From Acidobacteriota bacterium (GTDB lineage: Bacteria > Acidobacteriota > Vicinamibacteria > Vicinamibacterales > UBA2999), in NCBI GenBank assembly GCA_020851835.1, contig JADZBZ010000167.1, positions 77,128 through 120,898 of the forward strand: a stretch of DNA of 43,771 bases. Reading direction: 5' to 3'. The notes below the pieces were generated by a model. The model saw only the letters and a list, made by a program, of their open reading frames with translations. It had not been told where the DNA came from and searched no databases. Positions 9,388 through 30,637 of this stretch are shown here, piece after piece; within the stretch, counting starts at the first letter, position 1, and every line of letters begins with the position of its first letter. Both the position numbers and the translations under genes were made by a program.

Positions 9388-9687
9388 ATGATGATCAAAT
9401 TCAGCCCGAACGACAGGGGGAACCCTCCGGGTAAGCTGGCCGACGCCGAACTCCATTTCGTAGACGGTCCCCTTGAGGGCCTGAAGCTGGTCGGATTCGC
9501 CGTCTGGGAACGACGCGGGGGCGGTCGGTCCGTGACGTTTCCGACGAGGAAGTACTCATTGAATGGCGAGCGCCGAAGCTTCGCCCTCTTACGCTCGACT
9601 GGAGACGCCGCGTCACAGGATCAACTGCGTGAGGCGATCCTCAACGCCTATAGCGAGCACGAGGCGGAACTCGCCGCGAGCGCCTGA
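9388..9687 (+). CDS. Small conserved hypothetical, paralog B of 7579..7878
   Basis: MMIKFSPNDRGNPPGKLADAELHFVDGPLEGLKLVGFAVWERRGGGRSVTFPTRKYSLNGERRSFALLR, colinear with paralog A. Confidence 0.78.
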   Translation: MMIKFSPNDRGNPPGKLADAELHFVDGPLEGLKLVGFAVWERRGGGRSVTFPTRKYSLNGERRSFALLRSTGDAASQDQLREAILNAYSEHEAELAASA

Positions 9688-9727
9688 AACGCAAGGCGCG
9701 GTGTCCTGGCATCGCCGCGACGAGCCG

Positions 9728-10537
9728 ATGGCGTCGGCCGCGCACGCCCGACCTCCGCGAACCTTCCTGAATCCCCCGCTGAAGTGGGCAGGAGGCAAAC
9801 GGTGGCAGGTCCCGCACATCCGGGCGGTGTGGGCGCCGCACCGCGACCGGCGCTACGTCGAGCCGTTCTGCGGCGGCCTCGGGATGGCGCTCGGAGTCAG
9901 ACCCGAGCGCGCACTTCTGAATGACTCGAATCCGCACCTCATCAATTTCTATCGCTGGCTGCAGCGAGGCCTCGCCGTCGGGATACGGCTTGAGAACAAC
10001 GAAGACCTCTACTATCGACACCGCGACCGCTTCAACGCGCTCGCGGCGGAAGGTGAGGCCTCCAGCCATGAGGCCGCAACGCTCTTCTACTACCTGAATC
10101 GAACCGGCTACAACGGTCTGTGCCGGTTCAATCGCGACGGCCGCTTCAACGTGCCGTTCGGCCGGTACGCCGCGATCCGGTACGAGCGGGACTTCGCCCG
10201 GTACCTGCTCGTCTTCGCGACGTGGACCTTCAGCAGCGGAGACTTCGAGACCATCGCCGTCCAACCTGACGATTTCGTCTACGCGGATCCGCCGTACGAC
10301 GTCGAGTTCACGCAGTACGCCCCAGACCGATTCCGCTGGGCCGATCAGGAACGTGCTGCGGCATGGTTGGCGGCCCACCCTGGACCCAGCGTTCTCGTCA
10401 ATCAGGCGACCGCCCGCATCGAGCGCCTCTATCGGCAACTGGGTTTCTCCGTCGCCTTCCTCGACGCGCCACGGCGGATCAGTTGCACGGGCGATCGATC
10501 ACCTGCGCGCGAAATCCTCGCCACGCGCAATCTCTGA
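9728..10537 (+). CDS. D12-class N6-adenine DNA methyltransferase (Dam-like)
   Basis: LKWAGGKRWQVPHI, YVEPFCGGLGMALGV, YYLNRTGYNGLCRFN, FVYADPPYDVEFTQY (DPPY motif). Confidence 0.93.
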   Translation: MASAAHARPPRTFLNPPLKWAGGKRWQVPHIRAVWAPHRDRRYVEPFCGGLGMALGVRPERALLNDSNPHLINFYRWLQRGLAVGIRLENNEDLYYRHRDRFNALAAEGEASSHEAATLFYYLNRTGYNGLCRFNRDGRFNVPFGRYAAIRYERDFARYLLVFATWTFSSGDFETIAVQPDDFVYADPPYDVEFTQYAPDRFRWADQERAAAWLAAHPGPSVLVNQATARIERLYRQLGFSVAFLDAPRRISCTGDRSPAREILATRNL

Positions 10538-25422: not shown

Positions 25423-25452
25423 ATGTCAGAAATTATGATATACTTCTGACAT
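25423..25452. promoter_or_regulatory. Promoter/operator of the AbiE module: 9-bp inverted repeat around a -10-like element
   Basis: ATGTCAGAA-attaTGATATac-region-TTCTGACAT (arms 25423-25431 and 25444-25452) in a locally AT-rich patch overlapping the ATG at 25451. Confidence 0.65.
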
Positions 25453-26050
25453 GAATTCGCTGGGTAATCGCCTCATGGCGGAGGCCGCTCTGCTTCCGGC
25501 AGGCACGCCGCTCTCGGCCAAACGGTTCCTCCACTTGGGGGAGCGCGCGGCCGTTGACCAGGCGCTCTCCCGCCTCGCCAGGAGTGGGCATTTGCAGCGC
25601 GCAGCCAGGGGCCTCTACCTGCGGCCCGTGGAGACGCGATTTGGTTTGGGCGCGCCTGGTCTCGAAGCAACGTTGAAGGCGCTGGAACACGAATCGGGAG
25701 AGGTCATCGTGCCGGCCGGAGCAGCGGCGGCCAACCGGCTCGGCCTGACAACCCAGGTGCCGGTGCGCTCGGTCTACCTCACTTCCGGACGAAGCCGGCA
25801 GCTCGCCCTTGGCGCCCAGGTCATCGAGTTGCGGCACGCACCGCGCTGGCAACTGGTGCTGCCCGGCCGGCCGGCGGGCGAGGCTGTTCGGGCACTGGCT
25901 TGGCTCGGCCGCCAACAGGGCGCGAAAATCGCGCCGCGACTGGCGCGGACGCTAGGACCGGAGGGTGTGCAGGAATTGTCTGCCGCGCGTGGACGTCTGC
26001 CAACCTGGCTTGCCAAGGAGGTGAGCCACATGGTGGCAGCGCGTGCCTGA
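25451..26050 (+). CDS. AbiEi-type antitoxin (transcriptional regulator of type IV TA)
   Basis: 199 aa; wHTH RFLHLGERAAVDQALSRLARSGHLQRAARGLYLRP; immediately followed by AbiEii nucleotidyltransferase. Confidence 0.82.
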   Translation: MNSLGNRLMAEAALLPAGTPLSAKRFLHLGERAAVDQALSRLARSGHLQRAARGLYLRPVETRFGLGAPGLEATLKALEHESGEVIVPAGAAAANRLGLTTQVPVRSVYLTSGRSRQLALGAQVIELRHAPRWQLVLPGRPAGEAVRALAWLGRQQGAKIAPRLARTLGPEGVQELSAARGRLPTWLAKEVSHMVAARA

Positions 26051-27065
26051 GTCCTTCCTTTCGCTCGCGCCATCGGATCGCGCCGCGGCGCTGGACGTCG
26101 CCGCGTCGAGGTCTGGCCGACCCGCACATCTGCTCGAGAAGGACGTCTGGGTCGTCTGGACGCTCCACATGCTCTACGCCGCGCCGTTCGCCGACGCGCT
26201 GGTATTCAAGGGCGGTACGTCGCTGTCGAAGGCGTATCGAGCCATCCGTCGGTTCTCCGAAGATGTCGACCTGACGTACGACGTCCGGGCCATCGCTCCA
26301 GATCTGACGTCCGCGGGCGACGATAGCCTGCCGCCGAACCGCAGCCAGGAGCAGCGGTGGACCAAGCTGATTCGTGAGCGTCTGGCGGCGTGGACGCAGG
26401 ACGTCGTGGCACCGTTGCTGCGGGATCAGCTCCAGCAGGAAACCTTGGACGCGACTGTCGCTGTTGACGGCGACACGATTCGAATCGCATACCTCCCCAC
26501 GGCGACCGGCTACGGTTACATTCACTCGACCGTGGCGCTCGAGTTCGGCGCCCGATCGACCGGCGAGCCGCATGAGAAGCGGGACGTCGCGTGCGATGCC
26601 GCGCCACACCTGCCTGACCTGGCCTTTCCGAGCGCGACGCTCTCGGTGATGCGCCCGGAGCGCACGTTCTGGGAGAAGGCGACCGCGATTCACGTGTTCT
26701 GCCGGGGCGGCCGTTTCCGGGGCGCCGAGCACTTCTCGCGGCACTGGTACGACATCGACGCTCTCGACGCGGCGCCATTCGTCGAGGCGGCGCTCCGCGA
26801 CCACGACCTGGCGCAGCGAGTCGCCCGCCACAAGAGCATGTTCTTCCGTGAGAAGGACGCCCAGGGGCGGCCGATCGACTACGACGCAGCCGTTCGCGGT
26901 GGACTCCAGTTGGTTCCGGACGGCGCCGCAGCGCGGTTGCTCGCGGACGATTACGCCGCCATGATCGCCGATGGTCTCTTCTTCGGGGAGGTCCCCACGT
27001 TCGCGGATCTCTTGAGGCGGTGCGAGGCCATTCAACGGCGCGCGAACCCCGGAGGCCCTTGGTGA
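26043..27065 (+). CDS. AbiEii/AbiGii-type nucleotidyltransferase toxin
   Basis: VFKGGTSLSKAYRAIRRFSEDVDLTYD; MRPERTFWEKATAIHVFC; SRHWYDIDAL; GTG start overlapping abiEi. Confidence 0.92.
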   Translation: MPESFLSLAPSDRAAALDVAASRSGRPAHLLEKDVWVVWTLHMLYAAPFADALVFKGGTSLSKAYRAIRRFSEDVDLTYDVRAIAPDLTSAGDDSLPPNRSQEQRWTKLIRERLAAWTQDVVAPLLRDQLQQETLDATVAVDGDTIRIAYLPTATGYGYIHSTVALEFGARSTGEPHEKRDVACDAAPHLPDLAFPSATLSVMRPERTFWEKATAIHVFCRGGRFRGAEHFSRHWYDIDALDAAPFVEAALRDHDLAQRVARHKSMFFREKDAQGRPIDYDAAVRGGLQLVPDGAAARLLADDYAAMIADGLFFGEVPTFADLLRRCEAIQRRANPGGPW

Positions 27066-28045
27066 CGATCACCATCTCATCGTGTGCCTACGTCCATTCT
27101 GAAGACGTGGATCCCGAGCGCCACCTGAACGCTCCCGCGCTGGAGGCCGGGATGGACACGGCCGTGAAGGCCGCGATTGCGGCACTGGGCGACGATGCAG
27201 CCGGTTATACGGAGTTCCAGCGACGAACCATTCAGACCGTGTACACGTCGATGCTCTCCACGCACGGGTTGATCCGGAAGGTCCTCGGTGCTGGCTGGCA
27301 GAATCCTGCAGCGATCGACGCGCTCGCGCTCGCCCGCGTCCCGCTGGAGAGTCTCTACACCCTGTGCCTGATGTTCGAAGACGCGTCGTGGGTGGACGGC
27401 TACCTGAAGGACGGGTGGAAGAAGCAGTACGTCAGGTTTCTCCTCCAGTGCGAGGAAACGAAGAACCTGCCAAGGTTCAAAGAGTTCTGCACGATGTTGG
27501 CGCCGCGGAATCTGGATGCGCTCCGTCAGTTCCACGGCATCACAGATGCCCAGGTTGCCACCATCCATCATGAAGAGTTGGGTGTGCCCGTGCCAGACGG
27601 GATGGCGAAGGAGCACATCTCGCGATTTCCCTCGCCATCGAAGGTCATCAACCAGATGAAGCAGGGCACCGACAAGCGCACGATGCTCGCGCGTCTGTAC
27701 CCGGAGTACGTGTTCCTCTGCTCATTCGCACATGGCCTTCCCGATGCGCTCCTGTTCAAGATGATGTTCAGCAAAAACCCGCCAGCGTCGGACTACTTCA
27801 GCGAAGCGCAGATGAAGGACACCTTCCATCGGCAGGTAGAGCAGCCCGCCTATACGACGAGCCTCCTCAGCCTCATCCAGAGCTCAACGGAGCTGATCCC
27901 TCTTTATCCAGGGAACGTCGCGCTCCGCGCCGCGATCGTCAAGGCATGGGAGTCCGTCACCGAAGGGATGCTGCTCGGGAAGGCGATCTGGCACATTCGA
28001 ACCAAGAGGCTGCTCGGCATTGTGGATGCGGAGCCGTCGCAGTAG
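27062..28045 (+). CDS. Conserved hypothetical, all-alpha-looking, translationally coupled to AbiEii
   Basis: 327 aa; GTG start overlaps TGA of AbiEii; no confident family. Confidence 0.7.
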   Translation: MTITISSCAYVHSEDVDPERHLNAPALEAGMDTAVKAAIAALGDDAAGYTEFQRRTIQTVYTSMLSTHGLIRKVLGAGWQNPAAIDALALARVPLESLYTLCLMFEDASWVDGYLKDGWKKQYVRFLLQCEETKNLPRFKEFCTMLAPRNLDALRQFHGITDAQVATIHHEELGVPVPDGMAKEHISRFPSPSKVINQMKQGTDKRTMLARLYPEYVFLCSFAHGLPDALLFKMMFSKNPPASDYFSEAQMKDTFHRQVEQPAYTTSLLSLIQSSTELIPLYPGNVALRAAIVKAWESVTEGMLLGKAIWHIRTKRLLGIVDAEPSQ

Positions 28046-28195: not shown

Positions 28196-28771
28196 ATGAA
28201 CCAGCCGATAGTATTCGTCGGTGGCGTCCATGGCGTCGGCAAGACGACGATCAGCCGCCTTCTCGCGGAGCGTCTTTCCGCGTCCCATGTCACTGCTGGC
28301 CGCCTGATCCGGGAAGCAGCGAGCGGAACGGATCGCGTAACGGTTGGCCCTGGCAGGAAGGCTGTTCCCAACGTGGACGGGAATCAGGCACTCCTGCTGC
28401 GGGGCCTGGGCTCATACAAGGCCAGCTGTGGCCCGGGGCCGATTGTGCTGGATGGGCATTTCTCGCTTCTGGACTCAAGCGAAATCCCCGTCCGGATTCC
28501 GCTTCCCGTCTACGACGCCATCGCCCCTGTCGCCGTCGTGCTGGTGGAAACTGAGGATCGCGTGGTCCATGCTCGTCTGATGAGCCGAGACGGCGGCGCT
28601 CCCCCTGTTGCGATCGTTGCACAGCACGCGGCGTGCGAACGCCAGGCAGCCGAGGCGGTGTGCGCGAGGCTGAAGATCCCGTTGATCAGCGTGGCTGGCG
28701 ACGGGTCACCAGCGGAGGCGACTCGAGCGGCGACGTCCCGGCTGTCGCCAGTTCTGGCGGGTGTCGCGTGA
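28196..28771 (+). CDS. P-loop NTPase, nucleotide-kinase-like
   Basis: IVFVGGVHGVGKTTISRLLAERL (Walker A GVHGVGKT); PIVLDGHFSLLD (Walker B-like). Confidence 0.85.
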   Translation: MNQPIVFVGGVHGVGKTTISRLLAERLSASHVTAGRLIREAASGTDRVTVGPGRKAVPNVDGNQALLLRGLGSYKASCGPGPIVLDGHFSLLDSSEIPVRIPLPVYDAIAPVAVVLVETEDRVVHARLMSRDGGAPPVAIVAQHAACERQAAEAVCARLKIPLISVAGDGSPAEATRAATSRLSPVLAGVA

Positions 28772-30285
28772 CGATGCGGGCGCTGCTCGACACGAACATC
28801 CTGATTCATCGTGAGGGCCGGAGGGTCGTGCGCGATGACATCGGCACGCTGTTTCGGTGGCTGGAAGAACTGAAGTACGAGCGTCTGGTGCACCCCGACT
28901 CAGTAGAAGAGGTCAGGAAGCACGCTGACCGCGAAGTGGTACAGACGCTCGAGCGCAAGCTTGAGAGCTACAAGACGCTCAAGACCAGGGCGCCGGACAC
29001 GTCCGAGATCGCGAAGCTTCGCGAAGGCGATGCGGACGCCAACGACGTGGTCGACACGTCGATGTTGGCGGAGGTGGCGGCGGACCGCGTCGATGTGCTC
29101 ATCACGGAGGATCGGGGCATCCACCGGAAGGCGGCGTTGCTGGGGCTCGCCGGTCGTGTCTTCACGATTGACGCGTTCCTCGAGAAGGTCACGGCCGAGA
29201 ATCCTGCGCTGGCCGACTACAAGGTCCTCTCGGTCAAGAAGGAACTGTTCGGAAACGTGGACGTGTCAGTCGGCTTCTTCGATTCGTTCCGCGCCGATTA
29301 TCACGGCTTCGACGGGTGGTTCAACCGCAAGGCGGATGAAACGGCGTACGTGTGCCGATCGGATGACGGAGAGATCGTCGCTTTCTTGTACCTGAAGCGA
29401 GAAGGATTGGACGAAGACTACAGAGATATCGAGCCGCCTTTTGGGCGTGCGCGACGGCTCAAGATCGGAACGCTCAAGGTCGTCTCAAACGGCTTCAAGC
29501 TCGGAGAGCGGTTCATGAAGATCGTGTTCGATAACGCGCTGCGCTACGGGGTGAGTGCGATCTACGTCACGATCTTCAGGCGCACCGTCGATCAATACCG
29601 GCTGATACGGCTGCTCGAGGACTGGGGGTTCGCATACCACGGCACGAAGAACGGCGATGAGCTGGTCTACGTGCGCGATTTCGCGCCGCGCGTCGAAGTG
29701 GCCGATCCTCGGTTGACGTTCCCATACATCTCCGCCGGTGCGCGCAAGTGGGTGGTGCCCATCTACCCGGCCTACCACACAGAGTTGCTGCCCGACTCCA
29801 TTCTCACGACCGAAGACCCCGACGACTTCGAGGACAACAAGCCGAACCGAAACGCGCTGAGTAAGGTCTACATTTCGCGGTCGTACGAGCGTGCGTTGAG
29901 CCCAGGCGAAATTATCGTTTTCTACCGGACGAAGTCTGACGACGGCCCGGCATGGTACACATCAGTCGCGACTTCCATTGGTGTCGTGCAGGAGGTTGTT
30001 GATGGCATCCCGGATCTGAAGACATTTCTCGCGGCCTGTCGGAAACGCAGCGTCTTCACCGATGCGGAACTGCAGAAACACTGGGACTGGTCGCGGACCC
30101 GACCGTTCGTTGTGAACTTCCTCTTCGTGTACTCGCTACCGAAGCGGCCGAACCTGAAAGCGCTGGATGAGATCGGCTTCGTCAAGGGTAGCGCGGTGCC
30201 GCGTGGGTTCGCGCGCGTCAGCGATGAGTCGTTCGAGAAGCTGCTGAGAATATCCAATGCCGACACGCGTTTTATTGTCCGTTAA
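28768..30285 (+). CDS. PIN - GNAT acetyltransferase - PUA-like (EVE/ASCH-like) three-domain fusion
   Basis: PIN: MRALLDTNILIHRE...NDVVDTSMLAEVAADRVDVLITEDRGIHRKA; GNAT: RLKIGTLKVVSNGFKLGERFMKIVFDNALRYGVSAIYVTIF...LIRLLEDWGFAYHG; C-terminus ISRSYERALSPGEIIVFYRTK…ATSIGVVQEVVDGI; GTGA overlap with NTPase. Confidence 0.85.
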   Translation: MTMRALLDTNILIHREGRRVVRDDIGTLFRWLEELKYERLVHPDSVEEVRKHADREVVQTLERKLESYKTLKTRAPDTSEIAKLREGDADANDVVDTSMLAEVAADRVDVLITEDRGIHRKAALLGLAGRVFTIDAFLEKVTAENPALADYKVLSVKKELFGNVDVSVGFFDSFRADYHGFDGWFNRKADETAYVCRSDDGEIVAFLYLKREGLDEDYRDIEPPFGRARRLKIGTLKVVSNGFKLGERFMKIVFDNALRYGVSAIYVTIFRRTVDQYRLIRLLEDWGFAYHGTKNGDELVYVRDFAPRVEVADPRLTFPYISAGARKWVVPIYPAYHTELLPDSILTTEDPDDFEDNKPNRNALSKVYISRSYERALSPGEIIVFYRTKSDDGPAWYTSVATSIGVVQEVVDGIPDLKTFLAACRKRSVFTDAELQKHWDWSRTRPFVVNFLFVYSLPKRPNLKALDEIGFVKGSAVPRGFARVSDESFEKLLRISNADTRFIVR

Positions 30286-30637
30286 GCCGCGCTTCGCGGA
30301 AGCCATTCTTGCAGGAACGAAGACGTACGAGTTTCGCCGCGCGCTCTTCCGGCGATTGGACGTCGACACCGTTGTGATTTACGCGTCGAGCCCGACACGG
30401 AAAGTTGTCGGCGAGTTCACAATCGAGGAGGTGCTGTCCTTGGCTATCGACGCCCTGTGGAAAGCAACGCGGTCGGGCGGTGCGGTAGACCGCCGGTACT
30501 TCGAGGAGTACTTCCAAGGACGGGATACTGGGCATGCTCTCAAGGTCAGGCGCGCGCGGCGGTATCGAGTTCCGCTGTGCCTGCGTGCGGACTTCGGCAT
30601 CGATCATCCGCCGCAGTCCTTCTGTTACCTGGAGTGA
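30257..30637 (+). CDS. ASCH-domain protein
   Basis: VLLSVKPRFAEAILAGTKTYEFRRALFRRLDVDTVVIYASSPTRKVVGEFTIEEVL; overlaps end of PIN-GNAT gene by 29 nt. Confidence 0.92.
   Translation: MPTRVLLSVKPRFAEAILAGTKTYEFRRALFRRLDVDTVVIYASSPTRKVVGEFTIEEVLSLAIDALWKATRSGGAVDRRYFEEYFQGRDTGHALKVRRARRYRVPLCLRADFGIDHPPQSFCYLE

Follow-up and report, generated by a model that had tools for sequence, protein, structure and literature searches.

The three-gene locus analysed here belongs, as judged from sequence comparisons and predicted structures, to the (PIN)-GNAT-EVE / ASCH / AAA_17 family, which has already been catalogued and for which a function has been predicted. In our assessment (probability about 0.55), it would encode a toxin-antitoxin-like module for anti-phage defence or element maintenance, in which the fusion protein is an RNA-directed effector and the ASCH protein its antitoxin. 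The original prediction had proposed an undescribed system, which proved wrong, since both the PDC-M11A/B models of PADLOC and Bell et al. 2020 (PMC7641849) cover the family. New in our analysis are the constraint on both enzyme domains of the fusion protein, the missing tyrosine of its GNAT domain, the ZmASCH-like character of gene C, the asymmetric occurrence of ASCH genes without the fusion gene, and the dedicated partners. Members of the family are found in bacteria, archaea and phages. The conserved residues, the asymmetry of ASCH and the partners make polarity, target and chemistry of the system testable.

Gene layout, setting and family membership

The window, i.e. the whole stretch of 43,771 nucleotides that was analysed, sits inside one contig of a draft genome of 3.88 Mb in 577 contigs, and the three ORFs were confirmed in the places originally given for them (Table 1). 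Since the homologues of gene B start with MRxLLDTN in the alignment, the ATG at 28774, which lies 2 nt past the stop of gene A and yields a protein of 503 amino acids, is most likely the start of gene B; the GTG at 28768 (505 amino acids), from which all residue numbers of gene B are counted here, is possible too. With the start at 28774, the overlap of genes A and B that had been claimed at 28768/28771 is probably mere close packing, whereas the one of genes B and C at 30257/30285 holds and measures 29 nt. Fusion and ASCH genes are each present in a single copy in the source genome. PADLOC detected AbiEi/AbiEii at 25451-27065, and T4SS genes coding for TrbI, VirB6/TrbL, VirB8, TraG/VirB4 and a VirB11-like protein were found in the window, which confirms that the locus adjoins AbiE and that its carrier is a conjugative element. 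The ORF of 341 amino acids between AbiEii and gene A (27020-28045) had no match in Pfam, NCBIfam or PADLOC, and a D12-class adenine-specific DNA methyltransferase is encoded within the conjugative element at 9563-10537.

Table 1 Genes and domains of the locus in the window, and examples of the partner gene in other loci.
Feature	Position	Strand	Description
Gene A	28196-28771	+	AAA_17 P-loop nucleotide-kinase-like protein, 191 aa; optional system partner
Gene B	28774..30285	+	PIN-GNAT-EVE fusion; predicted toxin/effector; PDC-M11A; GevT-like with N-terminal PIN
Gene C	30257-30637	+	ASCH protein, 126 aa; predicted antitoxin; PDC-M11B; GevA-like
PIN domain of gene B	28774..29203	+	about residues 3-145
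GNAT domain of gene B	29233..29685	+	about residues 156-306
EVE/PUA-like domain of gene B	29707..30282	+	about residues 314-505
Partner gene, example 1	L041:7499-8431		alignment A5
Partner gene, example 2	L019:7524-8648		alignment A5
Partner gene, example 3	L069:7059-8219		alignment A5
Partner gene, example 4	L110:7014-8354		alignment A5

In PADLOC, gene B matched PDC-M11A (E 8.6e-200) and gene C matched PDC-M11B (E 4.4e-45), both over their full length, while none of the PDC-M11 models matched gene A; relative to this phage-defence candidate, which comprises PDC-M11A and PDC-M11B, the AAA_17 gene of the window is thus an extra gene beside the pair. Gene B also matches PHROG 10674 and 6345. 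Operons composed of (PIN)-GNAT-EVE, ASCH and AAA_17 genes were described by Bell et al. 2020, who, in the account given in that article, build on Iyer et al. 2013, and who predicted a toxin-antitoxin or defence role for such modules, none of which had been tested at that time (PMC7641849). The locus shares with these operons the order of domains in the fusion, the ASCH and AAA_17 neighbours and a defence-rich mobile context, but it adjoins AbiE on a conjugative element, and a search beside it did not reveal a type I R-M system.

Relatives of both proteins are named GevT toxin and GevA antitoxin in the record of the lambdoid Escherichia phage PhiR47_2 (GenBank PV340567.1), where these are product names only. 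The GNAT-EVE part of GevT is 37.6% identical and GevA 43% identical to the respective part of the window, and the two genes overlap likewise; GevT, however, is devoid of PIN and of an AAA_17 neighbour, and lies in a lambdoid prophage beside cI. Literature searches did not reveal a paper behind these names, nor anything relevant among newer toxin-antitoxin work or on ParB/Mom cassettes with ASCH. Based on the PDC-M11 models, the operons of Bell et al. and the GevT/GevA naming, the locus is a further member of the predicted kind, and the original idea of an RNA-targeting defence or toxin-antitoxin system agrees with all three.

Domains and conserved residues of the three proteins

For gene B, Pfam gave a weak match of the PIN domain (PIN_3, E 0.006) and none for the GNAT or the C-terminal domain, and searches of PDB sequences with gene B or its profile yielded nothing useful. 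The AlphaFold2 model, calculated from an alignment of 50 relatives, had a mean pLDDT of 90.2; in Foldseek, its middle part matched the GNAT enzymes AtaT, AtaTR, TacT2 and NatD, and its C-terminal part the PUA-like folds of ZmASCH and of the EVE domain of THYN1. Taken together, the weak Pfam match to PIN, the model and the Foldseek matches support the predicted architecture of PIN, GNAT and PUA-like domain. In the PIN domain, D8, E48, N92-D93, D96 and E114-D115 are invariant in all 33 PIN-bearing homologues of the alignment. The absence of catalytic residues from both PIN and GNAT, which the original prediction had named as its refutation, does not apply, as the acidic residues of PIN are intact. 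In three loci (L034, L058 and L059), PIN and GNAT-EVE show up as two separate ORFs, i.e. as split genes, frameshifts or assembly errors.

In the GNAT domain, K232, G234, K237, G242, R248, K251, Y266 and T268 are invariant in 50 of 50 relatives and only one of these deviates at G246, so that, on the evidence of these alignments, both PIN and GNAT are under strong constraint. The acetyl-CoA loop reads N241-G-F-K-L-G246, and the alignment mostly shows K or R, rarely L, in place of the middle glycine of RxxGxG. Two features served as a test for an AtaT/TacT-type toxin, a tyrosine four residues ahead of the GF of helix 4 and a neighbouring ribbon-helix-helix antitoxin, and both are absent. The site of the catalytic tyrosine, which we assigned to position 283 by the sequence pattern before GF and by the helix 274-285 of the model, is occupied by leucine in the window and by L, F, M, V or I, but never by tyrosine, in the sequences of alignments A1 and A3; gene B is flanked by ASCH and AAA_17. 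Gene B therefore has the GNAT fold in common with AtaT/TacT, with AtaT and TacT2 among the top Foldseek matches, but differs from them in the missing catalytic tyrosine, the altered acetyl-CoA loop and the presence of ASCH instead of a ribbon-helix-helix antitoxin. A canonical AtaT/TacT-type active site was rejected for the lack of the tyrosine at position 283, and the altered site argues against a simple transfer of the AtaT/TacT mechanism. Since the tyrosine is lacking and RxxGxG is altered, donor or substrate of this GNAT may differ. In the EVE domain, H337, P342-D343-S344, N362, Y368 and Y386 are invariant in the alignment, and the pockets of both GNAT and EVE are conserved.

Gene C, predicted to be a free-standing ASCH protein following the fusion, was recognized as such by Pfam (ASCH, E 1.6e-4) as well as by PDC-M11B. 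Its family profile matches ZmASCH of Zymomonas mobilis (PDB 5GUQ, E 3e-23), the nearest solved relative, and its AlphaFold2 model (pLDDT 96.7) superimposes on ZmASCH with a TM score of about 0.9 and an rmsd of 1.5-1.8. K22, E25, R27, Y42, Y85 and Q120 are invariant in the family and S121 is nearly so; Y42, Y85, Q120 and S121 correspond to Y47, Y90, Q127 and S128 of ZmASCH, which line its RNA cleft (PMC5615036). ZmASCH binds RNA and cleaves ssRNA but does not cut DNA (PMC5615036); gene C, about 27% identical to ZmASCH and with the Tyr/Gln/Ser/Tyr of the cleft conserved, is at most a putative RNase. We also considered an amidohydrolase of the YqfB type, the N4-acetylcytidine amidohydrolase triad of which is Lys21-Thr24-Glu74 (PMC6972931), and rejected it: the lysine is kept as K22, but the nucleophile Thr24 is replaced by the invariant Glu25, and the TM score to YqfB is only about 0.59.

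The predicted nucleotide-kinase-like P-loop NTPase in front of the fusion was borne out by a Pfam match of gene A to AAA_17 (E 1.1e-14). Its Walker A motif G-G-V-H-G-V-G-K, D86-G-H88 and R131 are conserved in 45 relatives. An assignment of gene A as VakA was rejected, as residues 1-42 (P-loop) alone match the 163-position PADLOC profile.

Linkage, spread and proposed function

In total, 80 genome loci and 30 viral contigs were fetched, the counts from which are descriptive as near-duplicates are included. Relatives in IMG/VR were retrieved with the tighter alignment A2, as alignment A1 was too broad and divergent for scanning; P0002 by itself retrieved no relative there. In 100 of the 101 loci having at least 1.5 kb of downstream sequence, ASCH is located no more than 3 kb from the fusion. 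The overlap of genes B and C is conserved in bacteria and archaea, with 23 nt in 37 loci and 26-38 nt in most others, the lengths differing mostly by multiples of 3. Where both flanks are present, 7 of the 32 loci with PIN and 19 of the 60 without it have AAA_17 on the same strand at a distance of up to 1.2 kb. Among 72,556 plasmids, 33 records carry the fusion gene; relatives of gene A were found by tblastn in 11 records, all of which also contain the fusion at a distance of no more than about 1.1 kb, and a second AAA_17 query found 5 records, again all beside the fusion. In the plasmid collection, the subfamily of gene A thus occurs only with the fusion system. A lack of conserved linkage of the three genes, the second refutation named beforehand, does not apply either, the three being linked in other loci. 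In three Rhizobiaceae loci (L065, L066 and L071), the neighbours of a GNAT-EVE gene are a PIN-GNAT-EVE gene of opposite orientation and one for an ASCH-containing protein of 263 amino acids, so that two versions of the system adjoin each other; in L065 and L071, AAA_17 is present there as well.

A quick, unrooted tree of 118 GNAT-EVE parts with some long branches requires 2 changes for PIN and 17 for AAA_17; PIN accordingly defines old lineages, and AAA_17 is gained and lost. By tree, the window has its nearest relative in an archaeon of the Thermoplasmata (L018, with 61% identity in tblastn), and others at 55-62% come from Hymenobacter, a cyanobacterium and a viral contig, so that the system crosses the borders between domains. 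Of 297 genomes of the window's phylum, only 3 match PDC-M11A, one of them weakly. The carriers of the family are mobile DNA: the T4SS element of the window, plasmids and prophages.

Each of the 16 phage records that have the fusion has ASCH as well, but of the 28 phage records with ASCH, 12 are devoid of the fusion, and profile searches in the neighbourhoods of 9 of these 12 found no fusion gene near the orphan ASCH. Archaeal prophage psiM100 carries the whole gene in its PIN form, while psiM2 is without the 2.8 kb fragment IFa, to which most of this gene belongs; what psiM2 has kept, next to 125-bp repeats, is the final ~130 bp of the fusion gene together with ASCH. That the fusion almost never occurs without ASCH while ASCH occurs alone is the trace expected of a toxin needing its antitoxin. 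In addition, some ASCH proteins carry a fused HTH domain, a feature of many antitoxins (PMC7641849). From this asymmetry, the HTH fusions, the GevT/GevA annotation and the conserved register of the overlap, we infer the polarity of the pair; an RNA target, an acylation chemistry and a regulatory role of gene A are proposed as well. The constraint on PIN and GNAT, the cleft residues shared with the RNA-cutting ZmASCH and the mobile carriers also speak for this explanation. The fusion protein would be a toxic effector: EVE would bind a modified base or tRNA, GNAT would acylate an amine on this RNA or aminoacyl-RNA, and PIN would cut it. ASCH, translated from the overlapping gene, would silence the effector, probably through direct binding to the protein or through occupation of its nucleic-acid ligand, and the AAA_17 protein would be a dedicated yet dispensable kinase-like regulator. 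Upon phage attack or loss of the element, this balance would be upset and the freed effector would lead to a stop of translation or to cell death.

A different reading, which we consider unlikely, is that a base in DNA is what GNAT-EVE acylates, with ASCH as reader or regulator of the DNA so modified (Iyer et al. 2013, as presented in PMC7641849), the PIN-bearing form being a modification-linked nuclease alongside restriction enzymes. We kept it because of the neighbourhoods of the orphan ASCH genes: in five Streptococcus phages (L136, L137 and L140-L142), ASCH follows genes for a ParB-like protein, an ABC-type ATPase and a small acetyltransferase upstream of terminase, the same three types of gene adjoin it in the one inspected Oenococcus phage (L135), and in the cyanophage CL131 of Aphanizomenon it lies beside a cytosine C5-methyltransferase. 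The Streptococcus/Oenococcus cassette is possibly a DNA-modification cassette, and these neighbourhoods fit DNA modification at least as well as a toxin. The reading also accommodates the GNAT active site unlike that of AtaT/TacT, the recognition of 5mC/5hmC DNA by EVE and other PUA-like domains (PMC7641849), and the position of the fusion between HsdS-like and HsdM-like genes in L018. Yet PIN domains mostly target RNA, ZmASCH cuts RNA and not DNA, and the phage pair is called toxin and antitoxin in GenBank.

Bell et al. 2020 (PMC7641849) proposed that the PIN-GNAT-EVE protein of the host destroys tRNAs acetylated by GNAT-EVE of phages, with PIN standing for host defence and GNAT-EVE for phage offence. 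The almost perfect separation of PIN from PIN-less proteins by the tree and the prevalence of the PIN-less clade in viral contigs (29 of 30) suit this proposal, which we nevertheless find improbable, since psiM100 has the PIN form, GNAT is equally conserved in both clades and hence not a dead remnant, and viral contig L098 of IMG/VR, with neighbours of phage-structural type, carries AAA_17, PIN-GNAT-EVE and ASCH in the order of the window. It seems just as improbable that ASCH is a second RNase effector in a multi-enzyme RNA degradation system, as the likeness to ZmASCH in fold and RNA cleft would allow, because ASCH stands alone in phages, including the natural partial deletion in psiM2, is almost never lost where the fusion stays, and has HTH fusions that suit a regulator.

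Putative membrane-anchored partner in other loci

In 25 loci, the fusion gene is flanked by a gene for a partner protein of 310-400 amino acids with a hydrophobic C-terminal segment (alignment A5; examples in Table 1). It had no match in Pfam or PADLOC, and the main text of Bell et al. (PMC7641849) does not mention a transmembrane partner, so we regard it as an unreported protein with a predicted membrane anchor. In plasmids, its relatives were found only in records also holding the fusion, and a search for a full-length match in 248 genomes of the order to which one of the carriers belongs returned only this carrier itself; searches of the window and its source genome found no copy. Returning to the toxin-antitoxin reading, a more detailed version of it, an RNA-targeting system with two working enzymes in one protein, the PIN nuclease and an unorthodox GNAT acyltransferase lacking the usual tyrosine, an EVE reader, an ASCH antitoxin, a dedicated kinase-like subunit and, elsewhere, a membrane partner, is put forward tentatively and with considerable doubt. 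Eight loci (L110:6407-7021, L073, L080, L084, L094, L097, L118 and L121) contain an additional, separate GNAT gene for about 180-200 amino acids, with the partner gene on one side of it and ASCH or AAA_17 on the other.
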